A stretch of 64,000 nt of DNA. Origin: Glandiceps talaboti (lineage: Eukaryota; Hemichordata; Enteropneusta; Spengelidae). Under the pieces are notes generated by a model. The model had not been told where the DNA came from and did no database searches. It saw only the letters and a program-made list of their open reading frames with translations. Location: assembly GCF_964340395.1 (NCBI RefSeq), contig NC_135553.1:25326449-25390448 (forward strand). Direction: 5' to 3'. Both the position numbers and the translations under genes were made by a program. Below are positions 2,582 through 50,900 of the stretch, one piece after another (position 1 is the stretch's first letter; every line of letters starts with the position of its first letter).

Positions 2582-5500
2582 GTGAGTATAATTGTCTCTG
2601 TTTATAGCAACCATCTTGTCATCTCCTGGTGCCATGCCACATCTTGTTTGATGTTGTCATGTCATTTCATGATGTCTACAGGTTATAACACACAAGTAGT
2701 TCAGAGTTGTTTAGGATTATGCTTTCAATCTGTCTTGGTTGACGATCCGAATTTATATAATACATTTGTAGAAGATATAATACATTTGTAGAAGACAGAC
2801 AGATTGGAAGCTGAATACTAAATATGTTTGAAGTACTTGTGTGTTATAACCTGTGTATTAGTCATTGGCTCTACCAAGTAGATGAACAGTTTTGGTCTTG
2901 TCATTTTATTTTGTGTCTCTTAACGTATAAAACAGTGTACAGATTTTAAACTATTATTTTAAATCTTACATAATGGAAAAAAAAGGCAGAATTTACAAAT
3001 TATCTTACCTCCTCACATTTTGCTGATTATGTTACTAGTATCTGATTATGTTACTAGTATCTGATTATGTTACTAGTATCTGAGTATGTTACTAGTATCT
3101 GATCTTCAGGCCTAAACACCTTTGTCTGGCCAACAGTAAGACTACATAGATGTATCACTGGCTGATGATAAGACATTCTTGAGTTGGTAAAACAACAGTA
3201 GTCAGTGATATACAAGAAAAATCACAATTGCCTAAAGTTAGAGTTGCTATGGATCTAATGTTTGGAAAGGGACACTGTCACAGTATAATGTGTAGCATAG
3301 CAGTATGGTTTGAAACTTTCACAATGTCATGCAGCTAGATAGATTTACAGTGTCATGCAGCTAGATAGATTTACAGTGTCATGCAGCTAGATAGATTTGC
3401 ACTGCTATGCAGATAGATTTACAGTGTCATGCAGATAGATAGATTTACAATGTCATGCAGATAGATAGAATTACAATGTCATGCAGATAGATAGATTTAC
3501 AATGTCATGCAGATAGATAGATTTACAATGCCATGCAGCTAGATAGATTTGCACTGCTATGCAGATAGATTTACAATGTCTTGGAGCTAGATAGATTTAC
3601 AATGTCATGCAGATAGATAGATTTACAGTGTCATGCAGCTAGATAGATTTACAGTCATGCAGCTAGATAGATTTACAATGTTATGCAGATAGATAGATTT
3701 ACAATGTCATGCAGATAGATAGATTTACAGTGTCATGCAGCTAGATATATTTACAGTGTCATGCAGCTAGATAGATTTACAATGTTATGCAGATAGATAG
3801 ATTTACAATGTCATGCAGATAGATAGATTTACAATGTTATGCAGATAGATAGAATTACAATGTCATGCAGATAGATAGATTTACAATGTCATGCAGCTAG
3901 ATAGATTTACAATGTCATTCAGATAGATTTAATTGTATGCATTGTGCTGTACCACAGGTTGGCTACAACGTTGACGGTTGGCTAGAGAAGAACAAAGATC
4001 CCCTCAATGAGAACGTTGTTGATCACTTCAAGAAATCCACAAACGCCATGGTCCAAACTCTGTGGGAAGACTACGGCACTGCAGCCAGTAAATACATTTT
4101 CCTTTTTCTGTTTTTCCTTCAAACTGATGTATTATGTGAACCCCCTCAAAAAAAACATTTACTGCTATAAACAAGTAAAAAAAATGGCTAGTAACCTCCA
4201 CAAGATGTATGTAGTTGTACAATGTGTAAATCTGATTGGGTAATTATAGTACTTGTTTATTGTACACAAATGTTGATGTTTACATATGATATATACTAAT
4301 GTATACTAAGGATCTGGAATATATATTATTCCCTGTTTGTATATCATTCATGATAATTTTGAAAAGTTTGCCAAAGGACATGAACTAGACAAGTTTGAAT
4401 TTAGCAATGAACTACAGACCATGTGCCATTGCATGGTTTGTATATAAATGTCAAAATATACCGTATTTGTATCTTACAAATGAAACAGTAGCACTATTGT
4501 TTTTAGCAAGTTGAAAATTTGAAAAATTCGGACTATATAAAGTTTAATTTATAAAATGACACCAAATTGTTATTAGGCTGAAACTGATCAATCTCTAGTT
4601 TTGTATTAAAGTCCAGTTTGTGTCTGTCCATCAAAGTTATAGATATTGTCAGATCTATGTTACAAATATGTGTATGTTTCCATGTAACATTGTTTGGTGC
4701 CGGTTACCCAACCCTACCTAGTTTTTCACTGCCGACCTTAAATATTTTTTTTTACATATTCGAGAAAAAATAAAATAAAATTGCAAAAATTGTGACGTGT
4801 CAAAAAGTGGATGCGGAAAATGACATCAACTTAAAAAGACCAATATAAAACTATTCTTCCAATCTGTAACGGTTGTATAGCTGATAGGAAGAAATCGATA
4901 ACACAGAGACCATTTGGAAAACAATGGAAAACCTGGACTAGACACTCACACATGAAAAATAAAATAAAATAAAAAATCTACCCACCCCCACCTATTCTAA
5001 AATTTGGCGTAATCGGACCACGCAATATTTTTTATCATGCTTTTTTTATTTCTTTTCTTTATGAATTCTCTAACTTTGTGCAGAAGTTTTGTTTGGTTGA
5101 CTGTTTTTCTATATTTTTTAAAATCTTGTATGAAATTAACACTTGTCATTGATACTACTGAGTATGTTTCTGTTAATATCAGTGTAACCATTTTTCTCTT
5201 TGTCAACATGCAGATAATGTTGCATGTTATTAATTAACTATGATTAGGTGTCTCATGTTCTCGAAAATCTAATATGGTACTTGCCAAGGAAAGGTTCAGT
5301 CCCTTGTAAAGTGACAAACAAATAGGAACAAATTTGAATGATGTAGTATTCAAATATTTAAAGGCTAACGATTCAATCCCAGCATCAGTGTCTCATTCAT
5401 ATCTCTTACAGTGGAGCCATGGGGATTAAGATATGACCATTGTCTTGATCACTGCCAACTTTTTCTATAACTCTGCCAGACAACTGTTTTTCTCTCATTT

Positions 5501-8500
5501 AAAAATTAAAAAAAAAAGAATACTTTCCGAATTCAACATGATGACGGGTCTTAAATTTTTACAAAGGGCAAGTTTCCTGGTCAAATCATAATCTTCACAA
5601 ATGCAAAATTACAAATTGTACTAGCACTAAGTTAAATCAAAGTTATTTTCAGTACATTTTGTTGCTGCTCTCTCAAAAGTCTTCTAGAAATAGTCTATTT
5701 CGTACTTTATGTCAGTGATAGATCAGGAGTCTGCAGTGTGTGACTTATAAAGAAATCTACTGAATCAGGAAATGTATTGAGCCAGTGAGTACCTTGTTGG
5801 TGGGAAATTGAACTGAAAACCAATGTATTGAGTTAGGGAAAACTGACTGCTTCTGTAGTTGTGATATCAGACAGCAGCATTTGCTGAGGCAAAATTAATT
5901 TAGTATAATCACAGTGTAGAATAGGTATGTTTACGAATCACATGATCCCATTTATGGTAATTTATGATAATTTATGGTAATTAGACCTAGGGTTGTATTC
6001 CTGTGTGTATTGATCTGTAAGTATTTTAAATGTTGTCAAAGTTCAATTGATGTACTAAACCTAACCTATTGTGGAGTTCTTGTGTTATAACTTTCAATCT
6101 CACTAAAAATTAGGTGGTGGCCGCAAGAAGGGAAAAAGTGGATCCTTCCAGACCGTCTCTGGAATGCATCGGGTAGGCATATGTATTTCCTTTTATTTGG
6201 AAATGGGGAAATAGCGATGATTGTTCATGGAGGGTAATTTGTCGTGTTCATTGTCAATTTTCAGTTGGCGGAAAGAAACAGAAGAAGATCAAGACAATCA
6301 GTGGCGGTCATCTGGTTTGCATGTCATTCTTTCCATATCCGTGTGGCTTTGGGTGTGATCTTTTTTATGATTCCCCAGATAGTTGCATGCCTTAAGTTTT
6401 GATCAGTAAACTCTGCACATAGATATATGATCATTTTCTAATCTTACTCTGAGCCTAAGACTTTATTTGTAAGATTTCTGGTAACACTAACCATGTATAA
6501 AAGTTTCATTCTCTCTGGGACCTATTTCAAGCCATCTATACATGACATCCATACATATACACTGATTCTGGCCAGGTAGAATGATAATGATAAAAATGAT
6601 AATAATAATAATAATGTTTATTCACCAATATAATAAAAATTAACCTTAAAATAAATACATCTACAGAATACATGACAAAAGGGATCAAGAAATAGCAAAG
6701 CTAGTCAAGTTTGTATCCCTTAGTGACTAACAAACATACTTGAAAGATATGGCACTTCCTGGGAGTTTAAGAGTAATATATGTAATGTACAGACATGGTA
6801 AAACATAATATTCTTATTTCACACAAGCCCACAGTACCTTACATATAAACAACATACATGTGTAACAAACTCTTCATTCTTCAGTCATACATGTACTACC
6901 CCTCTTTCACAATACTACAGTAACATACAATAATTTTTCTATTTGCCCATTGCAAAAAACAAGAAAGTTGTTTCAATAATCTTTGATGCAGTCTTTAATA
7001 CTTAATTGGTCATCTTCTCTTTGACCCACCAAACCTATAACTGTAATATTGGTTGGTTTCAGAACCCAAACCCAAACCCACCACACCCCCCCCCCCCCCA
7101 CACAAGTATGCCACTGTATTAAAATCTTATCATGCAGACATCGTCCAAAGTAGTCATTCCTCAGACTATTCATCCAGCTATCATTATTCTGTTTCTATTT
7201 GCATTATCAGTTTTTGTCAAACCTCATGTTGTTGTTTTTAACTTTTAGTTTACAGTTGCTGACTAAGAATCACAAGTTATTGCTTATTCTTTCACCACTT
7301 CGTTTCTTGATTTTTTTTCTTCTTATCTAATGAAATGGTTTCATCCATTCATTCACTTACTCATCCTTGCATGTGATGTATCCAGTACAACCCATCAATG
7401 CATTGCACCTCCCTACAGTTGTTCATTTCAGCTCTTGTAAACTTCATTGCAGGCTTAGAACCTTTACATTCCCATCACAGCATGTTGCTATCCACTCCTC
7501 ATCTATCCAATCAAATACAATTGCATGTCCACATTGTCTGTCATACCTTTGTTTGATAACACCCTATGTACACATTTTCCAGTCACTCCACTTCATCCAA
7601 CCATGAAGATCCCATCGGCTTCTATTTCCAAGTCCAAACATGACGGATCACTTCCTTCAAAATATAACGTTCATCTTCATCAAAAGTTAACTTTCACTTT
7701 CATCTTATCTTCATATATATATATATCTTCATTATCCTAGTAATTTCTACTTTCTCTCACTATATCCATTATCGTAAAAGTCAAATTAAAAAGGGTCTTC
7801 ATGACGCAACTACCATACCCAAAGCTTTGAACATATTCATAGACTTTAAGTCTCTGCTGCTGTCGCTTCTCATTTACTATCAAGAGTCAATGTGATATGG
7901 GTATTTCACAATGAACACAATGTGATTGCTGTCCAGTGGATAGGCTGGTATGAAAAGACTTAGAACCTGGCAAATCCATACCTCTATTGTTGTTTTACTC
8001 TTTATCTCTCTACCCACTATTCCATCGGTATCTCAAGTTTTCTGATAGTTCTTCGATGTTGCATGAGCTTCTGGTACTGCTACAATAGCATGTTATCTTC
8101 AACAAGTCTATTTTGGTATGGTATAAGCTATTAAGGGAAGAAAGACTTGCTCCTCTACTGTAGGGGATGATAGATTGCTGCCTGTAAAAGGTTGGGAGTG
8201 CATGTGTATCTATGGCTTATGTCTTACTCAGTTTCCATCCAATATGAGGTGTTAGATTTGCCAGCCATATTTAGTATTGTACACTGACTGTACACCAGCC
8301 TATCGTATGGTCCATCAATGACATTGGTTCATTATAGATTTGCTATCACTTTTTAAGTGTCAACTACTGCACTCGGCACTCACTATTCCTTTAAAGCTGT
8401 AATTAGCTTTAGTTTAACAGCAGTCTATATATCTAGTTGGTAGAAGCCCTCATCTAGTTGACGTGTGTATCACTAGTCTAGCATGTAATATGCATGAAAT

Positions 8501-11500
8501 ATGTGGGCAGTGGAAGACCTGCATGCATGATGTGGTTTGATGATAAATTGGTTTAAGTGAAATCTGTCTAAGCACTTTGATTCTGCTGATAGGAAATACC
8601 CATATCATCTTGACGTTTACTTAGTATGATAATTCTGTTATGTATATGCTGCTTTATCACAAAATATACTTTACTACCCGTACCATATTTGATCATCACA
8701 AAATTACCAATCAGGATTGTTTTCTTGAAGAACTACAAAGTCTAAAAATTGGATAGCATTTGTTTCGTTTCATAGATAACAGCTGTGTTTGTAAAATGCA
8801 CCTTGCTGTTCATTTTGTGACATGATCAGAATATGGTTATATTGGGGTAGAGATATTTACACGTTTTCATAAAGAAATGCAAGCACACTGCTGCAAGTGG
8901 TGCCTGAACCACAACAAAATAGCCAACCCATAAAATCATGATGTGAAAATTCATAACATCCCTGCAAAAGCCTGCCAATATGAATACAAAGTTGCAGCCT
9001 ATACATGCAATGTATGTATGTGATCTTTGTTATTACCTCGCAATATCATAACCATTAGCTCATTCGTAGTTAACTTTTATCTGGTTCAACCTCACAGGAA
9101 CAATTGAACAAACTGATGGCAAACTTGAACTCCACCCAGCCTCACTTTGTCCGTTGCATTATTCCCAATGAACAAAAGAAGGCAGGCGTGATTGACGCTC
9201 GCCTTGTACTTCACCAACTGGCTTGCAATGGTGTGCTTGAAGGAATCCGTATTTGCCGTAAAGGATTCCCCAACAGGATGTTGTTTGCTGACTTCAAGCA
9301 AAGGTTTGTTTGAAGCTGCACTAGCTGTAACTGGAATAGTGTTTTTTTCGATCAGACAACCAACGATATATTCACTGAAAATTGTAATAATACAAATAAT
9401 TAGACATTGTACATGTTCAGTAGGGCCCAATTCTATCCAGGAGTAGTACAGCAACAGTTTGAAAGTATTTTGGCCAACAATTTTTTGTGCGGACCCAAAA
9501 ATAAATTGGTTTGGATTTGTAGTACCATGCTGTGCATACAGCCACACCAAATGATTTACCCACATAAGATTGAATACTGTAGAGTACAATGAGTTAGTCA
9601 ATAATATCCAACAAAACAGTTTCAACAATTACTACAGTTGGAGCTAGTCTCTGATTGTAGATACTTTTGTGTTTGCATAAAATCGTGACTTGTAGTTTCA
9701 ATTTTTTCTTGTAATACTTTTTAAACTATACTGCTCCTTCTATTGGCATACTTCTCTCATGTTATATTATAATCTTGTTTGGCAAACAATGACACAACTT
9801 TACATATAACCCATATTTTAGATACCAGATCTTGGCACCCAGTGCTGTACCTCAGGGCTTCTTAGACAATCGTAAAGCTGCAGAGCTGTTGCTTGATGAG
9901 ATCCAATTGGAACCAGCTGAGTTCCGTTTGGGCCACACCAAGGTACGTAACAATGACTGTACTTGTACTGTTGTTTGCCATCATGCCTATCCAAATTCAC
10001 ATCCAAGTGACCAAACGCCACAGGAGTTTAAGGATCATACAATTACACAACTTTATGTAGTGATAACATTAGATTGCAACAAGTGTATGGTAAAGAAGCC
10101 TTCATACTGTGATAATGATTCTGATTGATTTCTGGATGTGGATGTTTCAGCTATGCAAAGAATAAACAATTCCATACATATTATATGTCAATCATTCAGC
10201 TATGTCCTTAGTTATCATGAGTTTTAGAAAATGATAAATCTATTATTTTACTATTGCATCTTGTCAGAGTATGAAACTGCTGTATCTGTATAAGTTTTGG
10301 ATCAGTTTAAGAAAAAGCTCCTTTAAGTTGCATACGATCATGGTGTTGGTTATTAATTTGAAGTGACATTCTGTTTACAGATTTTCTTCAAAGCTGGTGT
10401 GTTGGGTACCCTAGAAGACATGAGAGATGAGCGTCTTTCCAAGATTATCGGTATGTTGCAGGGCCACTGCAGAGGATTCTTGATGCGTAAAGTTTACAAG
10501 AAAATGTTGGAACAGAGGTATGACTATTTCTATTTTCTTTAACAATGTTTGAACACTTGTACAAATCAAATTTTCTCTCTCTATTTGTTGTAGATACATT
10601 AGAAAGTTTTGTTACTCTGTCATTGATAAATAAGATGCAGTTCATTTTGTCATCATATAGAATCATAGTTACAGGAAATTCTTTAAGAATGCTTAGCAAT
10701 ATGACAAAATTAATACTTCTATACTTTTTTTTAAAATTGTTTTTCTGTACAGAATTGGTATTGCTGTTATCCAACGTAATGTACGTAAATACTTGATTTT
10801 ACGTAACTGGCAATGGTGGAGACTATACACCAAGGTAGGTTTTTACTTGCCAAGGTTTACTTTCCCAATCCTTTCATTTCTTTGCCAAAGTTTTCTCCTC
10901 ATACTTCTGTAAGTTCTGTACTACTCAGACTGTGTACTTCACTGTAAGTAATATTCAGTAAATGCTGACTTTCAAAAAGGAAAAAAAATGTATTTCTATT
11001 TGATGATATAAGAAACAATATATTTAGATATTTAGAGGTAAAAAATCAAGAAGTGAAGATATTTGTTGCCTGTGATCCCAATTTGATTGTGGATATGCCA
11101 TTAGTAATTAGATTAACATGTGTACAGGTAAACCCTCTGTGGAACTTTACCCTCTGACCTTAATTTGAATATGTGACTGATGGAAAGATTTGATGTGTAT
11201 GTACACAGGTCAAGCCTCTGTTGAACGTTGCCCGTGCTGAAGATGAGATGAAGATCAAAGATGAAGAATTGAAGAAGTTCAAGGACAAGGCTGAGTCTGC
11301 TGAGAAGGAACGTAAAACATTGGAATCACAGAATGCTTCATTGACAGAAGAGAAGAATAAACTCTTCACCGAGCTGGCAGCTGTAAGTTGGACTACATTC
11401 GTAATATCAACAAGTTGTACTTTTTTTAGGTGTACAGGATGACTACTTTGAAGTTAACATGTAGCAGTTTAACAGAATATTATGAATCTAGTAAATTATA

Positions 11501-14503: not shown

Positions 14504-17075
14504 GGTGAGTGTATGTGTGGGAAAGTGTCTGCTCTGTGTATGAATGAGTGTGGATAGTCAACCAAAACCCATCCCTGTCAACAGGTCGAGGATGAGAAGA
14601 AACAGAAGGAAGAACAAATCAAACAGATATCAGAGAGCCTTGCCAAGCAGGAGGAAGCCCATGCCAAACTTAGCAAAGAGAAGAAAGCCCTAGAAGAAGA
14701 ACACTCCGTAAGTTGTATTACAATTCATCCTTTCAGATGTATTTACTAAATAATAGTGTATGCTGTCTGTCAACAAGATGGAATACTAGAATGAACAGCT
14801 TCCAAAGTCACTTCTACAGATATAATGTTTAGACTGCAACCTCCAAAATATGCCTATTTTGACTAAATTTTTAGAAAGAAATTAGGTTTCTGATACTATA
14901 TTTATGTTTTACTAGGCAAAATTTGACTAAATATGACTTATTAAAAGTGTATCCTTTTGTCGATATACAAAAACAGATATTTTTTGTATAATTTGTTGTA
15001 GAAAAGACACCAAGTGTAAGTGTGGTCACATCCATTCAAATCTGTAGTGTTTGATTAACTGAAACAATCCAAATCAATAAAGCTCATTCACCAGAAAATT
15101 GAACTTTGGTTTGATTTTTCTACCAACAGAGAACACAGGATGCCCTACAAGCTGAAGAAGACAAAGTCAACCACTTGAACAAAGTCAAGGCCAAGTTGGA
15201 GAGCACCTTAGATGAGGTCAGTATTGAGTACAAAGTTCAAAGTTCAAATTAGCTGATATTTTGGAATGATATGGGGTGCAATATTTCAAGCATGAACAGA
15301 GACTACAATTTGATCAATTTATCTCTGTATGTAATAGCCCAGATATTACAGCTTCCTTCATTTTGTGTAATTCCAAAGATGTTATTTGTGATAAAAAAAA
15401 AATGTATGTATTCAACTCAGTTACATGTAATACATTTCATGTCAGCTGATGTACGGTACCTATATGTAGTGAAAACCACTCTGTCTTCAACTGTGACAAT
15501 ACTTTGTATCCATTTGGGTGCCACCTAGTCTAAAAAATTCAGTCGTTGGTCCATTTATGTAACCACTCACTATCACATGGGTTGGAGCATACTACATATG
15601 CGGAAACAACAGCTAATCTTTCAGGCTAGGTGCCACCTATTTGGTGTATAGATCATACATAGTGAATGACCAAGTTTTTGTACCATTCTCATGGTTTGAC
15701 CTGTTGCATCATTGCTGGCAAAATATATTTCAAAAACCAATCTATGAGTTGTGGAATATCTTTTTGTCATATTTTGGAGGGAAAAGCAGATGTGAAATTT
15801 TTGGATGCATCTTTGCTCACAAACAGACCACTTTATCTTATAGACTGAAGATATGTTGGAGCGTGAGAAGAAGGCACGTGCTGATCTTGAGAAGAACAAA
15901 CGCAAACTTGAAGGGGATTTGAAGATGTCCCAAGAAGCTCTAGAAGAAACAGAGATTGCTAAACGTGGTCTTGAAGATCTAGTCAAGAAGTAAGTAGTAT
16001 AAGATTACACTGAAGTTATAAATACTAGGAATACCTCATAAAAGAAACTACCTTTATGTAGCAAATTCTGTCCCCCTGGTACACTTAATCTCGCTTTGTA
16101 CCTGTTTTCATGTCTGTTATGTGAGAGCAATGCAGAAAACTATCTGTTAGTCCAAAACTTGTTGCTGATGCTGATGCTGATGCTGTTGACTGAAAAGGGA
16201 GAGAGCAATTGAACTTTGACACCCTCTCTATAAAGTATCACTAGAGGGCACTGTTTTTCCAAAGTTCTCCTTGAGTCTCTGGGCCAATCAGAAACATGCT
16301 TTATATTAAGGTTTTGATAAGCACACAGTGCCAGGAGTCAAATTGACTGTGTGTTACCCATGTGAGACAGGTTGTCAAACTGAATACAACTTTACATAGT
16401 TTGAATAAAAGTTCATTACGTCTACCAGATTTTGACCAATCAGAACACAAAGACTAAGCATTATTTGTCATCTCTTGTGGTTTACAGGAAGGATGGTGAA
16501 CTAAGTTCCTTAAACAGCCGCTTGGAAGATGAACAGAGCCTGGTGAGTCAATTACAGAAGAAGATCAAGGAATTACAGGTAAGTCTTCATTATTATGGAC
16601 AGAATTCTATATGACTTTCCACTGCCAAAATTGTGAACACAAAATTCCATTTTCTTTTGACTGTTTTTGGCATACCTCAACTTCTCTGAAGAAAAAAAGA
16701 AAGAATGTATTCAAATTATCCCATGGCATAAATTGATTTCAAATGTGGTACAAAATTGATCAAATTGAGAAACTTTACCATGAACATAATTCTACCTATG
16801 TCAGACATGTCACAAATATTTTCAAATTTACGGTGGCATGGAGAGATTATTTTACCACATGTGCCTTGGAGCAATGGGTGGAATTTGAGAGAAAACATGC
16901 ATAGTGATTTAAATAACATTTGAACTCAACTTAAGTTGCTCAAATTGTGAATGTTTTCATATTTGGAGATAGCAAATACATTGCATCAGACATATGCTCC
17001 GAAGTCTTGTACTTGATGTCAAATGTTGATTGGCTTAACAGCCTTAGATTGTGTATGTGTGTGTGTGTGTGTGTG

Positions 17076-17147
<72 letters not shown>

Positions 17148-20100
17148 CCTGTGTTACACGTGTGTGTTGGGGAAACAAGTTGAAAATCTGTGTTTAGTCT
17201 AGTTCAGATTGCATCATCTTTGAATCAACTTTGTCAGATATCTTGGTCAAATTGAAAAAAAAAGTGTAATTGTGGATGCCAGCTCTGCTATAAAAAAAAA
17301 TGTATCTGTCTGTATGGTATGTGAGTCTGTAAATCAGTACTGAGTGTGATGACATAGACGTGACTTTGGTAGAATGGAATTGTGATTCATGGCAAAGAAT
17401 TCATGAATGCAATTCATCCTACCATAGTGTGTAACAGGGCTATGCTAATCTTGGACAGACACAGGCTGTATAGTACTTACTCAGGTACCTGGTACTAGTA
17501 CCATCACTTTTGGTCAAGTTTGGTCATCTCTAAATTTGATTTGCACATGGAAATAGAATGAGCCACAATTGAAACAACAGATCATCAGGTGTTATTCTCC
17601 CACTTGATTGGCCAAGCACAATAAAATATGATGTCTGATAACCTGAGTTTAGTTCCGCCCACTTCCAAAATACACCATTTTCAAGTGATGCATATGGTAA
17701 AGTTGTTGAAAGGAGCTGTCAGTGAAGTATGTGGTGTTTTATGGAAGGTGACCTGCACCTCTAGAATAGAAGTCTGTGTAGATTACACCACCATAATGAT
17801 GACATGGCTACTGCTTGGTTCAGCCTTTAATGTTGTGATGGGGATGAGTGCTTTAGTGTGGAATGTGTTTATAAAAATCAAATCTTGCACAGCTGTTTTT
17901 CCTGTACTATTATCATCTCCAGAGACTACGTCATTCATTTTAAAGAGTCTATTTTTGCACTCTGCATCAGTTGATTCAGTCCCATGGCACAGCAGGACCA
18001 GTCTCTTAGACTCTTTGTCAGACGTGATGGAACTGAATACAAAATACATCAGATTTTTCATTCAATGTCTGCCAAAATTTAAGGAGTATTGTTTGACTGA
18101 TTGGAAATGATATCTAGAGTTCATATTACATTCCCAGACGAAATTTCCAAAATTCAATAACCATTTATGTATTGAATAACTGTCATAAGAGGTTATTACA
18201 AACCACACACATATTAGTCATCAACTTTAATGATGTCTTCAAATTTCTCAATCATGCTGTGCTGTCTAATCTGTACATTTTCAAAATTATCTTGACAAAA
18301 TTCTTGCTCTTAAAAAAACTTTTTTGCATATATCAAAGTTATTTTGATCTGGAATTCTAGAAAAAAAATCCTTGTGAAAAAGGAGATGTCAAAGTGTTAA
18401 ATGAAAATTATTTCAGTTTTTACCAATTTTATTATAGTTTCAACATTTTTCAAACTGACCAAGCAAGCAAACATGGCTGTCTGCTCCTCAAAAATTTACC
18501 ATGGCTTACCTGCTTGTTTGTGGGAATATAGAAGTGGGGGCAAAGTTCAGCAAACAAACTTTATATCAAGGGTAGTTGCAAAGGAATGAGAAGTATGTGA
18601 TTGGTTTTAAGTAAAGCAGACAGACAAAGACAAAAACCAACAACCAAAATAAGCATCAAGTTGTTAGGTCATAACAAGGCAGCAAATACCTGAGTGATGA
18701 GAAATAGTGTGCCCCAAAAATGCACACACATTAATGTGATTTGACATCCAAATGTGGATGATTCATTATACAAAATGTAACCTTTAGCATAGGTATGTGG
18801 CAAGGCTACCTAGGTGACTGATCTTTGTGACCCTGACAGGCATTAACATGTGAACTAGTGAGGTGAAGAATGCAGTTGCTATAGAAACCCACACTGATAA
18901 GTGATATTTACAATAGACTAGGGGCTTTTTATTGGCTCGTTGATGACAGTGTGGCAACAATTTATTTTCATTACTTGAAATACGATGCCTTCAATATTCA
19001 AAAAAGGGGATAAGATGTAGTGATAGGTTACTGTGATTGGCTATGCTGTGTTTACCTGCAGATCAAAATGACAGCTGGGACATGGTAATCTTTCGATCAT
19101 TAGGCGGTTCCACCTTTTGAGTTTATTATGAATTTAAATCTTAGATTACAACCATGTGTAGAAATATGCAATAGAACCCTCGTATAGCCTAGTGGGGAGG
19201 CTGGGTCAGCTGGATACATTTACTAGCAGTTTTGCATACATGGGCATGAATAAGTTATCATAGGAAATGACATACCGTTGGCAATATAAATCCCACTAAA
19301 CATAGAGTTTGGCTACCAGCGTGTGTCTGTGTTCTCGTCTGTCAGTCTATTTGTTACTCTGTCACTGACACGATGTCTGTTTCGGCGCAGATTCTCATTA
19401 ACGTGAGTATAGTCGTTCTTTTCTATGATTCCATCATTGAACTTTCTAGTCTTTTCCGATGTTGTTGCATATACCAACGCTGTGTCAGTTAGGGTGAAAA
19501 GATGTATGATGGCCGCCAGTGTTTTAACCATAATCTGAAAGACTTCCTGAAACTCCCAGATATGCTATACCAATGAATCGTTACTTTTTTTGTGCAGTCT
19601 TTAACAACTTGTTTTCATTTCCATTACAAAAACATTCTCGAGTAGGAGTTATTCTTATCACCTGCCCAGTGCCCTCAAACCTTAGCAGCTGTAGACAGTG
19701 TTACTACAGTTGTTGTGAGTTATGGAATGGTTTGGTAATCGCTTGTGTGAGTTATGGACTAGTAATAGATAGGGTGGAGATTTCTTCATGGGAGTATCCC
19801 CATAGACAACTTCAAACTGTTTACCCAGTTGTCTGCAGCTGTCTTCTGTCTCATTAAAAGTGTTTACCTAAAGACAAAACTATTTCCTTCAATTCTATTT
19901 TGAAATTCATTTTAGATGAGGCATCAGAAGAAATCTTTTTGCCTTTTTACCAAAAAATGTCAATCAAATCAATTGCTCAAAATTTATTCAAAGTTTTTCA
20001 GGCCTAGAACCACTAGTGCTGCAGTGTGAGAAAATAGTCCATCCTAGTCTATTTTGAAATTCATTTCAACTTGGACAGCAGTACAAATTTCAGAAGATTT

Positions 20101-23100
20101 CACTAAAAAATTTCAATCAAATGTTTAAAATTTATCCAAATCTTCCAGACAGTTTATATTGTGAAGAGATTATATTATTTTCTGTTGAGATTTGAAGTAG
20201 GCACAGCAGGCTGCCTACAGAGGATAGTTTTCTTGTTTATTCAAAGAGTTTACTCAGGATGGAAAAATCTTTACTATGCATACATTTATTTTATTGAATG
20301 TCATCATGTGGGTTGAAAGTATCACGGTTTCGATAGTTTGAAGCAGTTTTGGCATTTTTGAAATTCCACTGTTGCATAAAGTTGTCCTCTTCTAATGTAA
20401 TTGGGCAGAGAGAATGCAACCTGTGACCAATGGCATTGAAGATTACCGGAGGTAATTTCCTTGAACTCAAATGTCATGTCACTTGATAGGATGTTGAAGC
20501 TATCTATTTTTCTTGGGTTAATGAAAGTGCTTCCTGCTGTTATTGTTTCTGGTATTGTTATTTTAAAAAAGAAGAAGAAAAAATTATCAACCGTTGAAAG
20601 CTGTTTGTCAGATTTCTGAGTCTAGTGACCTCTTGGGAATTTTTTGTTCAGTGAGAGAAATGGCTGTGTCAGCTCATCCAATTAAATGGAGTGGAAAGAT
20701 ATGTTGCATGGCAACAATTTGTTGACTAGTTGCCATAGCAACATTGCCAGACATGAGTTGAATGATAAAGATCCTTACAAGTGTTTTAACATGGTCATCT
20801 TGTGACGTTAATTGTGAAACTATGCATGGATTATCGAGTACATGAACAACTTTGGTGAGAATATGGATGTTATTACAGCAATGTAGTCTAAATCTGACCT
20901 ATAGAAAGAGTCAGTAAATGTGAGATTTAATGAAGACACTGGACATTCCTTGACTTCATTTGGCAAGTCGATCTGTACACTCAGACATATGTGATGTTCT
21001 GAATGTGGACTATTCTGTGTCTGAGCATGGGATGGAATTTAAGTGAACTAATTTTAGTGCATGAAATCCCATCTCTTTGCACTGAGCATCAGGTCTTCTT
21101 GTGTTACATATTATCATATATGATGAGCTCGGTGAAAGTCCTGCTTGCCCTATTAGAGAAAGTGGAATTTCAGCTGAGCTATGCATGCCACTTCCATTTA
21201 TGGCAGCATTCCATGCCAGCCATCTGACCATGTGATACATCAGGGCTGCTTATCTCTATAGGTCTCTCATTGGCTGCAAGGCTACACTGTCATAGTTGAC
21301 CAGTACTTGTATGTCAAATGATTTGCATTCAGAGGCAGTAGTAAGTAACCGTGTTGGTAGCACACAGTTGGCATTCAGGCTCTTCAGGGCATGCCTACAG
21401 ATTGGGAGATTTTTGAAGATTCAGCTTGTCTCAGGGAATTACTTGTAAGCTGTTAACCGGTACAACTCTACTCAACTACTACTACCCCTGCTGCTCAGCC
21501 CTTGTCTGTTCCTGTTCTGTGTTAAAGGATTGCTATTGGGGATATCTGCCAAGATGTCGATGACTTCATTAGTAGAATACAGCTACAGTGCTAGTGGAAC
21601 GGGAATTCCATCAACATCCCATTCCCATACTGTATCAAAGAGTTCTTCCTATGAATCCAAAATGACCGAGAGGGGATCATTTCAAAACTTGAGCAAGAAG
21701 TCAAGGAAGATTCTCCGACAGAGTTATGAAATGGGTGACAGTGCTGTTGGTCTGAGACATCTATTTGAAGTAGGGAGCTTATTTTTATCAACTGCTTGTA
21801 CAACCATAATATTGTTGCTTTAAAGTATAAGGTTCATTGGAAGTCTGCTTCATTTCTCAGCTTTGTCTGTTATGTCTGTGCTCAAGATTGTAAACAGTTA
21901 AGTAGCAGCTTTGGCTCATTAGTGATAAGTGAAGTATTTGTATTGCTTCAATGGTCAAAGTAATCAATATAATTACATGGACTTTGCAATGTTTTGTTTA
22001 TGAGCAGTACTGCACTGCTAGTCAGATAGCAATGGCCCAGTACAGTGGTATCGTCAACAAGTCTTTACTGTAATGCACAGTACTGTATTGACAAAAGCTC
22101 CCCAGAGTGTTTCGCCACATTTATCAAAAGGTTCCTTTCTAAGGCAGTTATAAAGTTATGGATCGGAATGTAGTGTCGATTGTGTGAGCAGTAGTCATGT
22201 CATCCTTGGAACATATATTTTCATTGGGGTACCGTAAGCAAGTATTGTGCAGACAATACAACCATTGTTAACAATTATTTCCACCTGAGCCTGTCTTTTC
22301 ATGCGAGTGCTTCTGTTTATCGACAGGCCCGCATTGAAGAACTGGAAGAAGAATTAGAAGCAGAAAGACAGGCTCGTGCTAAGGTAAGTGCAAAATATTA
22401 ATAACTTCTGTAGAGTGATTTTGTCTCCTTTTATGGCAGAAGTTATCTGCAATGGCAGAATCACAATGTTGTGAGACAATGTTTAAGAAACATAGAATAC
22501 ATTCTTTAGTGTCAAATTACAATCTGTGCAATGTCTGTTCGTTAGTCAGGAGTTCATGTCCATCCATCCATATCCACCGTCGGTGTACATCGAGTGGAAA
22601 GGTCATAAAACGACAACAAAATACCGCAACATGTCATTATAGGTCTTTTAAAGACAGCATAAATTCCAGAGTGAGTTGACCTCTGTTGTACTCAGACATT
22701 TAAATGTGAGATTTACTGTTTGCTTCACTGCTATGTAAACTCTCAGCTGGATACAAGTAGACTGTGCTACACAGACATACATAAATTGTGTACGACACTC
22801 AGGAATTTTCCACAATTTTTCTTTTAATGAAAATTTTCATAGATAGCTAACCGGAAGAGATCATAACACTGACATAGCATTGGCTAGTGTCCCATCGTGT
22901 ATGCAAGTGATATATTCATTAGCGCTGTTGAAAATTTCATTTCTCACTTTTTTCGATCTTAATGAAGAATTTAGTGCACAGTAAAATCAAAGTGACCCTA
23001 GTATAGAATGCTCCATCCAGATCAGAATTGTGACAGTGATATTTATGTTACATACTTGACATAGTCCTAATGCATAGTCCTAAAGTAGACAGTCGGACAT

Positions 23101-32100: not shown

Positions 32101-34851
32101 CAGCATGAGCTGGATGAGGCTGAAGAACGTGCTGATATGGCTGAAGCCTCACTAGCCAAAATGCGTGCTAAACACCGAAGCCAAGGTGCCACATCTCGTG
32201 TCAGCACTGTAAGTATGACTGTAGTGGTTGCCACTATGTGAGACAAAATTCACTAATGAGTAAGTCTGTTATTTGAAAAAAAAAAAAGATGAAGAATATT
32301 CTGTATAAAAATATGTATGATTGGATTTGGTTGTGGTGAAAATATTTCAAAGTGTGTTGTATGTTTTGAGCAACGAAGATGATGTGTGTCAGTATGAAAG
32401 AGAATTGATTTCAATCATATTTGTGTGGAGATGAGATGATTGACATGTGGTCAAATTTGATTCCTTTTTGAAAGTACTCTGACTCAACACTGCAAAATCA
32501 GAGACAAATCCAAGGAATGGCATATTACACAATTTATAAAAAAATAGTCATTATGAAAAGACAGAGTTTTGGAATAATAACAAAATATCAAATTATGAAA
32601 ATGAATCTGTCAGAGATGTCCAGATTGCTTGAAATTATATACATTTTAATAATTAGTCAATTTTCAACATTGTAGTCTGAGGTATATTCTAAACCACTAA
32701 GTCTTAAATTTGATCATAAAAGATTGGTTCCCTCAAAATGAGTGACTTTGATGCAACCAAACCAAAATTATTCTAAGTTGATGTGGAAAACCCTATGTGA
32801 GTGAAAGTACATGATAATATGCCGTTTGATGGAATCAAATCTGACAGGAAAACAATGCTGAGTCTATTTCTCTAAAAGTCTATTGTGTCCATCTTGTGTG
32901 TTTGTTGTTCTTTTCTTTTTTCTCACTTTTTCTGCTCTTCACTTTTGCTGGATATTTGCTGATAAAGAAGTCTACAACAAGTCTAACAACAGCTCATTAA
33001 AATGAAGCTGGTGAATCAAAAATCTAAGTTCAAAAATCCCAGTAAGTTGTCTGTCCAACTCTACTACTCGGCGATGCATCCCATAGTGTACATTCCAACT
33101 GCTTGTATTGTCTCCCAGTATTCTAGCACAAACTCCTCACTATCCAGTTTTATGAATGTGCAAACCTATGGTGTCTTATTAGCAAGTTTGTTATGTCTTA
33201 TGTCTAAACAGAGCTCCTTCAGTGGTCCCGGTGGAATGACAACTATCGTTAAAAAGACCACTAGAACCCTGACCACAGAGGAGTCGTGAACATCTCCTAG
33301 TTCAAACAAAAAATAATGGTAATTGGTAGCCACGCATGCCGTGATTCCAACTATGTAGACATATTTGCATGCTGACTTTTTCCTGCCTGTTTGTCTGTCT
33401 TCTTCTTATTTCACTTGTGTGTGTGGCATGTTTGCATATCATGATTGACATTTTTTTATCTTTATTGGACTATTATATTTTGTTTTCATTTCTAGGGATA
33501 TTTTTCGCAATCATTATCTCTCTTTCACTGTATTTGATTTGACATCTTTTTAACTTTGTTCTCAATAAATAAAAAGTGAAGAAAGTAGAAATGGCTAAAA
33601 CACAGCAAGATATTACCCTATATTTTTTTAACGAGTCACCATTATTTCAAAATCAGTTCAATCTGATTTCTTTCTGTCATATCACTTAATTTGCATATCT
33701 GAAACGAAGTAATGAAAAAAGAGAATTATTGTTAACAGTGAAAGAGATATAGATGTCTTCAAAGATAGGTAGTGTGAAAACAAGGAACTGAACAAACTTT
33801 TAACGTTCATTGCAACAAATAACAACATCAACAAATATAACCATCATTCACATTGCCCAAGAATTGTAGATGTTGTTTTGCAACAAGTAACATCAAGAAA
33901 TAACACTCATGCATTTTCAAACAGTTTTGTGGTTGAGAATTTGTCATGTAGATGCTTATACAGCAGTGACCTGTACTAAAAAGTGCAATGTTGACAGTTT
34001 TGTTACCTAGGAAACTTGTACCCTTCATCTCTTCATTAAAGACAAATGAAGTGTCCATTTTGAATTGAAAGTATCGCTCTATCCAAAACTATAACTTCAC
34101 CATTTGCAATGTTGCCAAATTAGTGTTCAAATAAGTTGAGTTGAAGTTATTCGGTGCAACTTCCCAATTTTGAGTTTTGAGTTGTCTACTATGTACACTA
34201 AAAGTGTGATAAATTACCATATTTCTATAGGTAAAAGCATGAGTTTTAGGCAAAACAGGCTGCATTTTGGTCAAATTTGGTTAAAGTGTGTCCCTAGTAT
34301 GTCAAATTATATATAATCTGGCTTCTTAGTAGATACATGTATTAATTTGTCGATCTATCACCAGGGATACATTTTGTTTTAGTTGTATTTCATGAGTCAA
34401 AATAGACCTTTACATAAACTGCGCCCTCTAGTGATGGCTTAGAGCTTTCAATGAGATATACTATGATTTTGAGGAACTGGTGAGATCTTATAGTTGTTAT
34501 CACTTGAAGGCTGGCTTTATGTTAAATGTTTATTCTGCTGTAACCTTCAAAGAAGGGCATGATATAACCCAATACCAATATAACAATCTAGCATCTATAC
34601 CAGTGCCAATGCCTGTAGAAAACTATGATCCCATTCTGACGATGTGGATCATTCCATTCTACTAGGTGTAGGTAAACAGGTATTCATATTGACAATCCTC
34701 ACCTTTTATTCATTTTGTGCTTTTTTCTTTCTCTTCACAGGGTGGCTACAGCTCAAGTACAAGAATGTATACATCGCGAAGTAGTGATCGTTATAGCGAT
34801 CGTGGTAGTGTAGGATCAGCAGCCAATGGGGGGGATGAGGAAGAGGAATAA
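1..34851 (+). CDS. Mhc: Striated-type muscle myosin II heavy chain, 5'-truncated by the window edge, alternatively spliced
   Basis: This is the ATP-driven actin motor of the sarcomeric thick filament. The first complete codon is at base 1, and about 300 N-terminal residues including the P-loop are upstream. Shared exons: 1-45, 176-314, 653-771, 1684-2004, 2393-2581, 3958-4087, then 6114-6172 or 6265-6314, then 9098-9303, 9822-9942, 10381-10517, 10753-10834, 11209-11382, 11911-11991, 12638-12766, 14585-14707, 15130-15216, 15844-15989, 16488-16578, 22327-22383, 24555-24808, 25152-25230, 25587-26029, 26146-26278, 26564-26780, 26915-27155, 29451-29643, 30272-30400, 30757-30957, 31248-31418, 31734-31934, 32059-32208, then 33212-33289 or 34741-34851. 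All junctions are GT-AG and phases agree throughout. With the first choice at each site the window encodes 1641 residues: 516 of motor plus neck, 1100 of coiled-coil rod and a short tail. The striated class is shown by [18 protein letters not shown] and the rod pattern. Exon limits are read by eye from splice motifs and family similarity. Confidence 0.96.
2291..2310. repeat. (GT)n microsatellite in myosin intron
   Basis: About ten uninterrupted GT units in the intron before exon 2393. Confidence 0.9.
2681..2851. mobile_element. Small foldback (MITE-like) element in myosin intron
   Basis: GGTTATAACACACAAGTAGT (2681-2700) is matched in reverse complement by ACTTGTGTGTTATAACC up to 2851 with one mismatch over 23 bases. 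Inner arms also pair (GCTTTCAATCTGTCTT near 2720 with AGACAGATTGGAAGC near 2797). The loop contains a directly repeated ATAATACATTTGTAGAAGA. No coding capacity. I call it a non-autonomous inverted-repeat element; the family is unknown. Confidence 0.6.
3023..3103. repeat. 19-bp tandem repeat, about 4 copies
   Basis: The unit CTGATTATGTTACTAGTAT is repeated head to tail with one variant (GAGTATG). Confidence 0.9.
3321..3932. repeat. 26-bp minisatellite abutting a myosin exon
   Basis: About 23 copies of a unit like TTTACAATGTCATGCAGATA followed by GATAGA, with AGCTAGATAGAT variants and some 22-bp units. The array stops 25 bases before the exon at 3958. Confidence 0.93.
3958..4087 (+). CDS. Mhc: Myosin exon before loop 2
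   Basis: Encodes [20 protein letters not shown] onward and ends WEDYGTAA plus one base (phase 1). Its acceptor at 3956-3957 follows a 26-bp minisatellite almost directly, so the polypyrimidine tract is poor. Because it ends in phase 1, only an exon starting with two completing bases keeps the frame. Both loop-2 exons meet this: AGT (Ser) with the first, ATT (Ile) with the second. Confidence 0.95.
4088..6113 (+). other. 2.0-kb myosin intron, no recognised feature
   Basis: AT-rich intron upstream of the loop-2 exons. I found no further loop-2-like exon, RNA gene or recognisable transposon in it. Confidence 0.6.
6114..6172 (+). CDS. Mhc: Loop-2 alternative exon A of myosin
   Basis: A 59-nt exon between TTAG and GTAGGC. 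With the preceding base it encodes 20 residues: a Gly/Lys-rich segment GGRKKGKSG followed by [10 protein letters not shown], which matches the conserved C-terminal side of muscle-myosin loop 2. Loop 2 is the flexible actin-binding loop that tunes actin affinity and ATPase rate. It enters in phase 1 and leaves in phase 0, joining EQLNKLM at 9098. Confidence 0.92.
6265..6314 (+). CDS. Mhc: Loop-2 alternative exon B of myosin
   Basis: A 50-nt exon between TTTTCAG and GTTTGC, 92 nt downstream of exon A. With the preceding base it encodes 17 residues: [17 protein letters not shown]. It has the same phases as exon A (1 in, 0 out), a similar Gly-Gly start, a lysine cluster and a TxSG motif, but is three residues shorter. 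The pattern fits a duplicated, diverged, mutually exclusive exon. Its donor is weaker than that of A. Expression is not shown by the DNA alone. Confidence 0.85.
6579..6617. repeat. (AAT)n-type microsatellite
   Basis: AATGATAATGATAAAAATGATAATAATAATAATAATG in the intron after loop-2 exon B. Confidence 0.8.
7084..7099. repeat. Poly-C tract
   Basis: A run of C preceded by CCCAAACCCAAACCCACCACA, which reads as G-runs on the minus strand. It lies in the 2.8-kb intron 6315-9097, otherwise without recognised genes. Confidence 0.85.
7886..8614. repeat. Imperfect inverted repeat in myosin intron
   Basis: GTCAATGTGATATGGGTATTTC (7886-7907) pairs with GAAATACCCATATCATCTTGAC (8593-8614), 20 of 22 matching. 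Inner segments ATAGGCTGGT (7940) and ACCAGCCTAT (8293) also pair. The arms are irregularly spaced, so this may be a decayed or nested element. Confidence 0.4.
9098..9942 (+). CDS. Mhc: Myosin actin-binding strut, SH helices and converter (exons 9098-9303, 9822-9942)
   Basis: The first exon encodes [20 protein letters not shown] and [10 protein letters not shown], then the reactive-thiol helix with both cysteines ([18 protein letters not shown]). The second, joined through a split AGA codon, encodes the converter ([14 protein letters not shown] and [11 protein letters not shown]) and ends HTK. The 9098 acceptor is the one that must serve both loop-2 exons. If A and B were both included, or both skipped, reading through this exon reaches a stop. 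Confidence 0.95.
10381..10834 (+). CDS. Mhc: Myosin lever arm with two IQ motifs (exons 10381-10517, 10753-10834)
   Basis: [19 protein letters not shown] leads into IQ1 ([18 protein letters not shown]), the essential light-chain site. The next exon holds IQ2 ([17 protein letters not shown]), the regulatory light-chain site, followed by the WQWWRLYTK hook. The junction splits an AGA codon (AG at 10516-10517, A at 10753). There are two IQ motifs, as expected for a conventional class II myosin. Confidence 0.95.
11209..16578 (+). CDS. Mhc: Myosin proximal rod (S2): exons 11209-11382, 11911-11991, 12638-12766, 14585-14707, 15130-15216, 15844-15989, 16488-16578
   Basis: The rod opens with [15 protein letters not shown], the conserved head-rod junction, and runs on as heptad coiled coil rich in Glu, Lys and Leu with no proline after the start. 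831 nt encode 277 residues. Landmarks: [48 protein letters not shown] and [19 protein letters not shown]. Most exons are phase 0 at both ends. The exception is 15844-15989 with 16488-16578, which share a split AAG codon. Confidence 0.94.
12518..12549. repeat. (GTTT)n microsatellite
   Basis: About seven TTTG units shortly upstream of exon 12638. Confidence 0.85.
12917..13268. promoter_or_regulatory. Cluster of five octamer motifs (ATTTGCAT) in a myosin intron
   Basis: Exact ATTTGCAT occurs at 12917, 12932, 12962, 13224 and 13261, all on the plus strand, with further near matches. Octamers bind POU-domain factors. The first copies lie in a loose tandem repeat, so the cluster may partly reflect repeat expansion; a regulatory role is inference. 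Confidence 0.35.
14410..14500. repeat. Long (GT)n microsatellite
   Basis: About 90 bases of GT repeat, nearly pure, 85 bases upstream of exon 14585. It generates spurious Cys/Val open frames. Confidence 0.95.
16579..22326 (+). other. 5.7-kb myosin intron
   Basis: The longest intron in the window. Apart from the compound microsatellite I see no exon, nested gene or clear transposon. The 160-codon open frame at 17628-18110 has no recognisable domain. The length could accommodate enhancers, but nothing specific was read. Confidence 0.6.
17053..17146. repeat. Compound (GT)n(CTGT)n microsatellite
   Basis: A GT run followed by about 17 CTGT units, in the largest myosin intron. Confidence 0.95.
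22327..32208 (+). CDS. Mhc: Myosin distal rod and light meromyosin: exons 22327-22383 to 32059-32208
   Basis: Thirteen exons (22327-22383, 24555-24808, 25152-25230, 25587-26029, 26146-26278, 26564-26780, 26915-27155, 29451-29643, 30272-30400, 30757-30957, 31248-31418, 31734-31934, 32059-32208) encode 823 residues of filament-forming coiled coil. Landmarks: [66 protein letters not shown]-like [16 protein letters not shown] and the assembly-competence region near [18 protein letters not shown]. The 57-nt exon 22327-22383 sits between introns of 5.7 and 2.2 kb. It is frame-neutral but 19 residues long, so skipping it would shift the heptads; I take it as constitutive. The donor after 27155 (GTGGGC) is weak. 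The rod ends [14 protein letters not shown] in phase 0. Confidence 0.94.
22384..24554 (+). other. 2.2-kb myosin intron, no recognised feature
   Basis: Unique-looking AT-rich sequence between the 57-nt exon and exon 24555. No open frame with family resemblance was seen. Confidence 0.6.
27156..29450 (+). other. 2.3-kb myosin intron
   Basis: It contains a short (GT)n near 27865-27880, an A-run at 28558-28570 and a C-rich stretch at about 28597-28615. The open reading continuing past 27155 is intron read-through, because the next exon restores the conserved rod sequence. Confidence 0.6.
32968..33000 (+). CDS. Possible third, very short C-terminal myosin exon
   Basis: A long pyrimidine-rich tract (about 32895-32945) is followed by GATAAAG and then 33 in-phase bases encoding [10 protein letters not shown] and TAA. 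The Thr/Ser composition resembles the tail at 33212. The AAG acceptor and its distance from the tract are not ideal, and ten residues can be open by chance. Confidence 0.2.
   Translation, partial: KSTTSLTTAH
33212..33289 (+). CDS. Mhc: Alternative C-terminal myosin exon 1 (Thr-rich tailpiece)
   Basis: Follows a TCTAAACAG acceptor in phase 0, compatible with the end of exon 32059-32208. Encodes a 25-residue non-helical tail beginning [11 protein letters not shown], continuing [14 protein letters not shown], then TGA. The tail is Thr/Ser-rich and basic in the middle. A canonical AATAAA lies about 275 bases downstream (33564), so a short transcript ending here is plausible. Tailpieces of this kind in invertebrate myosins are known isoform markers and phosphorylation targets; the role here is inference. 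Confidence 0.85.
   Translation, partial: SSFSGPGGMTTIVKKTTRTLTTEES
33564..33569 (+). terminator. Poly(A) signal AATAAA for the short-tail myosin mRNA
   Basis: The string CTCAATAAATAAAAAG holds canonical AATAAA 275 bases after the first tail exon's stop and before the second tail exon. It could end the transcript that uses exon 33212-33289. Confidence 0.6.
34741..34851 (+). CDS. Mhc: Alternative C-terminal myosin exon 2 (Ser/Arg/Tyr tail with acidic end)
   Basis: Follows a strong TTTCTTTCTCTTCACAG acceptor in phase 0, like the other tail exon. Encodes 36 residues beginning [20 protein letters not shown], then [11 protein letters not shown] and the acidic end DEEEE before TAA. It has several Arg-x-x-Ser and Ser-x-Arg contexts that could be phosphorylated (inference). 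Joining to exon 32059-32208 skips exon 33212-33289, giving a longer tail isoform. Confidence 0.87.
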   Translation, partial: GGYSSSTRMYTSRSSDRYSDRGSVGSAANGGDEEEE

Positions 34852-47900: not shown

Positions 47901-50900
47901 TAGAACTTCAATCCCAGGTTCTCACAGTAGAGTTATTTTAACAGTGGAACCATTAGATGGGAGTACTTAGGACCATTCTGTTGTTCAGGACCAACATTTT
48001 CAATAGATTTGCCCGACAACTGACATGACAATGAAAAGTTGACTTTTGGCAAATTTCAAGTATTCAATCCTAATTTCAAGTTGTGTGTGTTCATGTCTAT
48101 GTAAATTTATAATAGATTTCCATGTCTTGTCATTGTGGTGAGACACTGCAGTTAAATGAAATGCATTCAGGTTAATTTTTATGTACTTACTGCTGTTGGT
48201 GTATCTTTCCTTCTTTATTTTTGCATACCAATACAGATTCTTACAGAACAGAAGCAGCCAGCATTAGCAGCCATGCTAAGTTTACAGTTAGGAAATTATC
48301 TAAGGGTAAGATATATGTAATCATTGCATATCAGCCATGCTAAGTTTACAATTAGGAAATTATCTACGGGTAAGATATGTGTAATCATTGCATATCAGCC
48401 ATGCTAAGTTTACAATTAGGAAATTATCTAAGGGTAAGATATATGTAATAATTGCATATCAGCCATGCTAAGTTTACAATTAGGAAATTATCTAAGGGTA
48501 AGATATATGTAATAATTGCATATCAGCCATGCTAAGTTTACAATTAGGAAATTATCTAAGGGTAAGATATATGTAATCATTGCATATCAGCCGTGCTAAG
48601 TTTACAATTAGGAAATTATCTAAGGGTAAGATATATGTAATCATTGCATATCATGAATTCAGCAGATATCTGAGGGTTTCTGACTGAGGGTTGCAGAAAC
48701 CTACAGGTAAACCTCAAATTTAAATTGAACTTTGACCCCAATTCACCTGAACCAATGCTGTTGTGGATTGTAATTTACTTTCAAAGTGGCATTTTAAAAA
48801 AATTTTAATTGAAATCAGTGCTTGTCATGTGTCAGCAGTTTTATAGCATCAGGGGACCAGGTATATATTTCAATTATTGAAGGGAGAATTAGGTATAGTG
48901 AAAACTTGCAAATATTTCCATAGTTTGTACCATAACTGTTGTTGGGAATCCTGGTAAAATGTATGGGGAACCCAGGTAGATTTTACATGCTTATCTCCCA
49001 TAACAAAACACTGAATTAGTAGACATTTCCTAAATATGTAGGAACTTCATTTGTACTTCATTTTATTTTTACTATATTTTATGGCTTTCAGTTTGAAAAT
49101 AATCTCAACTGATGAGGTCTTGTAAGATAGTATCACTTGTTTCCAAATCTTGTAATGTTACACATAGTTGTATCCACTAAACAAACAAAAATGCATATCT
49201 GGATGAAGGAAAATATTTTGGTATAATGTGATCTAATGTTCAGTCATGTCATGTCCAATAATCCAGCATATACTAGTAATTACTAGACACTCTGTGACTC
49301 TCAGTATCAATGCCTTCAATCTGTTATAGGAAATAGGCAAGGCAGGAGAAGCTATAGGTCATTACCAAAGAGCAGCTGAACTACAGTTCCAGGTATGGAA
49401 TAACTTTTTTTATATATCGTGAAATCATTGGTCACCTTTAGTTGTTAGCAAATGTATGACATGCTGTAATGCAATTTTAGTATAGTTGTGGAAAGGGGGG
49501 ATTCTTGTTACAATAGTTTACTTTATTTTCACTGTCAGACATGAATGTTGAGAGTAAATTGTAAGGGATCAGGTAGACAAAAACACAGATAGATTTCTCC
49601 ATAGTATGATCCATACATAGATCATTATACTTTTCACGGGAGGTAGAAAAAAATGAAATGTTCAGTTTGTTCTTCTACTCCATGAAGTTAGCTTTCTTCC
49701 CTGTAGTCATAAAATGACATTTTGATTGTTTTCTAGAATCCATTGGATTGTCTAACATCACTTGGCTGTGTGTCGTCCTGTAAAATAGAAACACGTAAGT
49801 CAGTGAAAACTACAGTTGTACTAATATTGTGGAGTAAATTTTTTCTGTTTTATTTTTTCATTATCATATAATGAAGTTTGCTGATGTTACAATGTTAGTT
49901 ATGACAATATCTAAATATCTAATATCTGTTCAATACCTGAAAGATTTGTAAAATTTGTAATCACATGTCATTGTGAATTCCATGTAGTCGGTCATTAGTA
50001 GCAGTTTATAATGATAGATGATAAATTAGATGTTATTCCATAATATTTGTCTTCATTCAGCCAAGGAAAATATGAGTGACCTAAGGGGCCTTTGTCACTA
50101 CAAGTCACTAGACGGGTAGTGACAACCCCTTAGGTCATGAGTATTTTCCAGTTGAATGAAGACAAATATTGGAGAATAACATAATTATACCAGTGCCAGT
50201 AATATCAAAGAAAAATCAGGGAAAGTGATGGCAATTTTGAACGTTTTGACTCTATTTTTCGAACACAGCAAAAAAAGTGACGTAAACATGTGTTGTTGTG
50301 ACATAGACATGCATTGCCAGAACAACCAGAGTGTATATTCTATATTTTATGCATGGTATAATTCTTGTTACTCAACCTTATGATTCTTATTTCTTATGAT
50401 TAACATTTTGCCAGTTCAGGTCGACAAGAGTTTTGTCAAACTGTGTGTTTGCTGTCTTTACCGCTAAGCATAGCTGTCTATGTATTGGATCACTTTGTTA
50501 AATTTACAGAGTTCTAACCGTGTTACAGTTATAGTACTTTTACATCTATCTTCATCTATATTATACCAGCTAATCTCCTTACAGATATCACACTATATGT
50601 ACTTGGAAGAGAAGGGTAACTTTTAATTATACTTTGATATTTGATGTTACATTATTGTAGGTGATTATGAAGGAGCATTAACAGTGTTGACAGAGATGGA
50701 ATATTTGGCCAAAGAGAGGGGTATCTGTCCTCACAGTGAACGTTTGATGGGTGCATTCTCTGACATCATAGCTAATTGTGAAACCACTAGAGTTCTGTTA
50801 CTAATGTTACTACAGGTAGGAAACTCATATAATTATGTCATTTGATCAAGCTAATAAGATAACTTTTCTTTTTGAAAAAATATTACCATAGTATTAAACC

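Follow-up and report, generated by a model that had tools for sequence, protein, structure and literature searches.

We analysed a 64,000-nucleotide stretch of the hemichordate Glandiceps talaboti (contig NC_135553.1, positions 25,326,449 to 25,390,448), referred to here as the window, and focused on two neighbouring exons, A and B, that encode alternative versions of loop 2 in a muscle myosin heavy chain gene. The gene lies on the forward strand, as do all its features described below. The window covers the later motor, the neck and the rod; the 5′ part of the gene lies outside it, and codon numbers refer to the visible coding fragment. Our gene model comprises 32 exons, including both A and B and a first exon cut at the window edge, together with two alternative last exons. 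In a comparison with proteins in the PDB, isoform A scored 790.5 bits against 3i5f, 788.5 against 1qvi and 787.5 against 3jbh, which we take to be the squid, scallop and tarantula myosins, and the top non-muscle myosin reached 601.4 bits, below the muscle myosins (all among the best 60 of 150 matches). The myosin head family PF00063 of Pfam is matched by isoform B with 568 bits. By these sequence comparisons the gene is classified as a muscle class-II myosin heavy chain.

Exon A (6114–6172) is of the canonical FQTVS type, with 59 nt, 20 residues and the borders ag/GTGG...TCGG/gtaggc. Exon B (6265–6314), with 50 nt, 17 residues and the borders ag/TTGG...TCTG/gtttgc, follows after an intron of 92 nt (6173–6264). 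The shared upstream exon (3958–4087) has ag/gt borders and ends in LWEDYGTAA plus one nucleotide, so that the next exon is entered in phase 1. Both are GT-AG exons, and their borders bear out the original prediction that A and B are entered in phase 1 and left in phase 0, with loops of 20 and 17 residues. With A alone or B alone, the frame remains open to the end of the gene with either last exon. Using A and B together gives a product ending in VIWNN at a stop (TGG AAC AAT TGA) at codon 354, and skipping both leads to a stop at codon 339; both stops lie inside the shared downstream exon (9098–9303), as had been claimed. A working mRNA thus needs exactly one of the two exons, since both or neither meets an early stop.

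The two exons are each other's best match in the window. A scan for stop-free AG-to-GT stretches of 41–83 nt with phase 1 entry and phase 0 exit yielded 2,181 candidates, 1,138 on the forward and 1,043 on the reverse strand, among them B as well as A in full and in truncated form. Leaving aside these two forms of A, B scored highest against A (30.0), followed by a candidate on the reverse strand (21.5); in the same scan, A was the best match to B apart from B itself. Shuffled versions of B attained 30.0 against A in 62 of 20,000 cases. The similarity corresponds to 0.29 of the self-score of A, with 28 of 51 bases identical in the codon alignment. When 30 exons were scanned for copies of similar length (within 18 nt) in their neighbouring introns, the A/B pair stood at this same value, and for the other 29 exons copies in neighbouring introns reached at most 0.12 of the self-score, many exons having no candidate at all. 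No third loop-2-like exon was found between 4088 and 9097: the best of the 81 candidates there that overlaps neither A nor B scores 9.0, and the runners-up overlap one or the other.

The codon score is 0.40 for B (17 codons, outside the training set) and 0.31 for A (in the training set), compared with 0.09–1.18 for the 23 exons of at least 100 nt, all in the training set; codon use of both exons is of the coding type. The pair also shows the features by which mutually exclusive exons are recognized (PMC3228551), namely similar length, compatible splice sites and reading frame, and sequence similarity, here modest. Because the single-exon frames are open, the match is mutual and the codons are used as in coding sequence, A and B form a real pair, which most likely stems from the tandem duplication of a single phase 1/0 exon. 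No match to structured RNAs was found in Rfam at the gathering threshold, and searches for relatives returned 46 pattern matches in bacterial and archaeal contigs and 2 in viral contigs, none of them confirmed.

In the alignments with solved myosins, the exon covers the C-terminal part of loop 2 and the start of the next helix, which corresponds to the description of cluster-8 exons in PMC3912159. Exon B aligns at the same place as A, and the best local match there scores 61.7 bits for B versus 79.8 for A. Where this helix begins, A reads FQTVS, the five PDB alignments FQTVS or FQTIS, Drosophila FATVS and B IKTIS. Mutually exclusive cluster-8 exons for loop 2 are described in sea urchins and in the acorn worm Saccoglossus (Kollmar and Hatje 2014, PMC3912159), and both versions are supported by expressed sequence tags (ESTs) in S. 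purpuratus and Saccoglossus. According to the same source, flatworms have two exons in cluster-8 as well, and the cluster is inferred for the bilaterian ancestor. The one-cluster pattern of sea urchins and Saccoglossus fits the Glandiceps gene, in which no other visible exon has a copy, the 5′ part of the motor being outside the window. This likeness is one of arrangement and not of established orthology. Neither RBFOX nor GCAUG appears in the main text of PMC3912159. From their sequence and arrangement, A and B are very probably the cluster-8 mutually exclusive loop-2 pair of invertebrate muscle Mhc, with the reading frame as a fail-safe.

The original prediction had the frame lock A and B into mutual exclusion. 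Transcripts with both exons or neither do stop early; the frame, however, is not the cause of the exclusion, and splicing must choose. We considered whether the lock is remarkable in itself and rejected this, as it is a consequence of exon phase: a tandem copy of a phase 1/0 exon is locked automatically, because the length of such an exon necessarily leaves a remainder of 2 when divided by 3. Frame compatibility is, moreover, a premise of the software that predicts mutually exclusive exons (PMC3228551). The frame lock discards splicing errors and makes no choice between A and B. Wrong products would go by nonsense-mediated decay, and it is in this sense that the frame would act as a fail-safe.

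Loop A contains three Lys and two Arg and loop B five Lys, with Asp or Glu in neither. A difference in net charge between the loops was therefore rejected, as each has five Lys and Arg residues and no acidic one. Without a charge difference, a reading in which more lysine means tighter actin binding does not apply to A and B. Of the earlier proposal that one locus makes two motors with different actin affinity and speed, the two versions of a muscle-myosin loop 2 stand, whereas the difference in properties does not follow from equal numbers of Lys and Arg. The proposed comparators also proved poor, since the catch and striated isoforms of scallop differ in clusters 2, 3 and 11 and not in loop 2 (PMC3912159), and since the arthropods named as having alternative loop-2 exons are Bombyx, Daphnia, Pediculus and Tribolium and not Drosophila (PMC2257972). 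The loop-2 variants of these arthropods resemble A and B in that they differ in length but not in the number of Lys+Arg, so that a very small effect on actin binding was expected, and exon A is similar to their 'a' pattern S[G/A]F[Q/M]TVS (PMC2257972). In contrast, the shorter arthropod variant is shorter by one residue, compared with three in B, and B lacks FQTVS.

In Lethocerus, both loop-2 exons are present in one flight muscle, with a mean ratio of 4 ± 2 in three cDNA samples (PMC5660136), so A and B need not be divided between muscle types. Because Lys+Arg numbers are equal in A and B, the arthropod variants are alike in this and both Lethocerus loops occur in one muscle, two motors of different speed are possible and not the sole reading. 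As the positive charge is the same and the difference lies in length (20 versus 17 residues) and in the start of the next helix, the exchange probably has a modest effect, tuning either how actin is contacted or the folded off-state. By analogy with Lethocerus, for which the interacting-heads model has the MXE-8 region of the blocked head in contact with S2 (PMC5660136), both loops might occur in the same fibres and tune the folded off-state with its interacting heads, and would then not form separate fast and slow motors. The equal charge of A and B is in line with this alternative, but loop-2 swaps in Dictyostelium myosin point to participation of loop 2 in actin binding (as cited in PMC3912159), and we consider it somewhat unlikely.

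Turning to how one exon is selected, splice sites were scored with matrices built from the gene's own sites, with leave-one-out scoring of the other sites. The acceptor of exon A (−3.7) is lower than all 29 others compared, while its donor falls in the middle of the range, 16 of 30 other donors being as low or lower. The acceptor of exon B is lower-middle, with 7 of 29 others as low or lower, and its donor is weak (2.7; 3 of 30). Because A has a poor acceptor and B a poor donor, neither exon would be used by default, and the choice would be made at the splice sites.

The weak donor of exon B is overlapped by the RBFOX-type motif TGCATG (6318–6323), at intron position +4, and a second copy (6384–6389) begins 70 nt past the end of the exon. 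The intron after B (6315–9097) contains nine sense copies in all, at 6318, 6384, 7368, 7522, 8060, 8199, 8491, 8520 and 8524, compared with a mean of 1.36 in dinucleotide-preserving shuffles, none of which reached nine in 1,000. The reverse complement occurs three times, a number reached by 218 of 1,000 shuffles; the enrichment is limited to the sense strand. Two copies fall within the first 100 nt of this intron, as in only 6 of 2,000 shuffles, and the flanks of the nine sites are dissimilar, save for two overlapping sites. Relative to the rest of the window, TGCATG ranks third among 1,626 hexamers in the intron, behind CCCCCC and the overlapping GCATGT. Across 33 stretches covering the first 100 nt past exons, there are two copies after B, one after the first alternative last exon and none in the other 31. 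Exon B thus has the enriched UGCAUG close downstream that characterizes RBFOX-regulated exons, for a motif picked after viewing the sequence. An RBFOX-type protein bound to TGCATG at and after the B donor would favour B where it is present; without it, A, the canonical loop, would be used. Judged from sequence, we propose RBFOX as the selector of exon B tentatively, at rather less than even chances.

The two alternative last coding exons lie at 33212–33289 and 34741–34851, and the TGCATG near the first of them begins 77 nt past its end. In Drosophila, loss of Rbfox1 alters the use of the last exon of Mhc, possibly indirectly (PMC8742874).

A parallel is offered by MYH9, whose loop-2 exon A2 has a weak 5′ splice site and is included upon supply of RbFox (PMC13158602). 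Like exon B, A2 is an alternative loop-2 exon with a weak 5′ site, the response to RbFox being that of MYH9. Unlike exon B, it is a 63-nt cassette of a vertebrate non-muscle myosin that is included or skipped and belongs to no exclusive pair (PMC13158602).

Several observations count against our interpretation. The similarity of A and B is short and modest, and B has no FQTVS-type helix start and matches solved myosins with lower scores than A does. Seven of the nine TGCATG sites are more than 1 kb from exon B. The motif was spotted by eye and six motif patterns were counted before the shuffle test, and for this reason it is a lead and not proof. Regarding MYH9, MBNL1 and NOVA1 also increase the inclusion of A2, a transcript whose 5′ site had been mutated was likewise pulled down by RbFox3, good 5′ sites are present in the loop-2 exons of MYH10 and MYH14, and no mention of UGCAUG in A2 was found (PMC13158602).

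Exclusion could instead result from competing base-pairing of intron RNA, between a docking site and selectors, or from the cramped intron between A and B; both arrangements are known for other exclusive exons. Cramping is suggested by the length of that intron, just 92 nt, and by a branch-point-like site 22 nt from the donor of A, but two further such sites, at 54 and 77 nt, may suffice for splicing. Within five stretches of up to 300 nt around the exons, none of the ten pairs showed stronger pairing than expected from dinucleotide shuffles, 5 of 60 shuffles being as strong as the best pair. We regard such a mechanism as improbable. Least probable of all is that exon B is a decaying, rarely or never used duplicate, as its weak donor gtttgc and the lack of the FQT(V/I)S that A has in common with the five PDB alignments might suggest, given its intact frame and borders, its five lysines, its codon score outside the training set and, if these are orthologues, the EST support for both versions in S. 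purpuratus and Saccoglossus (PMC3912159).

Further features were observed in the window. The intron immediately upstream of the exon at 3958 holds a tandem array (3321–3928) of 23.8 copies of a 26-nt unit. Within the intron 16579–22326, a serine-rich open exon runs from an ATG at 21554 (possible start 21528) to 21769. It closes with GLRHLFE before a GT, in phase 0, and splicing there would connect it to the rod exon at 22327. Such an exon could possibly yield a headless rod protein with a rod of 848 or 859 residues. For comparison, the rod of molluscan catchin/myorod comprises 830 residues and its separate N-terminal domain 156 (PMC12040844), and catchin exons are named in four molluscs (PMC3912159). 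Against this possibility, the codon score is weak (−0.24, a level reached by 115 of 1,630 overlapping windows outside exons), the donor has a middling score of 5.1 and Pfam matches the rod part alone. The same intron contains TATAAAT (19285–19291) and, starting 88 bases after its first base, ATGTCTGTTTCGGCGCAGATTCTCATTAAC followed by gtgagt (19373–19402), possibly the promoter and first exon from which a transcript starts inside the gene. Outside the myosin gene, 50645–50845 is an exon of a homologue of the 40-kDa huntingtin-associated protein (F8A/HAP40), with an E-value of 7e-9 to solved HAP40 and no Pfam match, and 57705–57860 is a coding stretch for cytochrome oxidase subunit VIb (COX6B; Pfam 61.7 bits).

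The loop-2 pair of Glandiceps is a further case of a known, ancient way to obtain two motors from one gene. What is new here is a candidate selector, consisting of two weak splice sites and a motif cluster, which provides a concrete and cheaply testable possible account of exon choice. It is conceivable, though in our view unlikely, that an ancient bilaterian loop-2 switch is worked by RBFOX proteins bound to UGCAUG where the second exon has its weak donor, with the same logic as reported for MYH9. If this were true, the loop-2 diversity of distant class-II myosins would have a common regulator.
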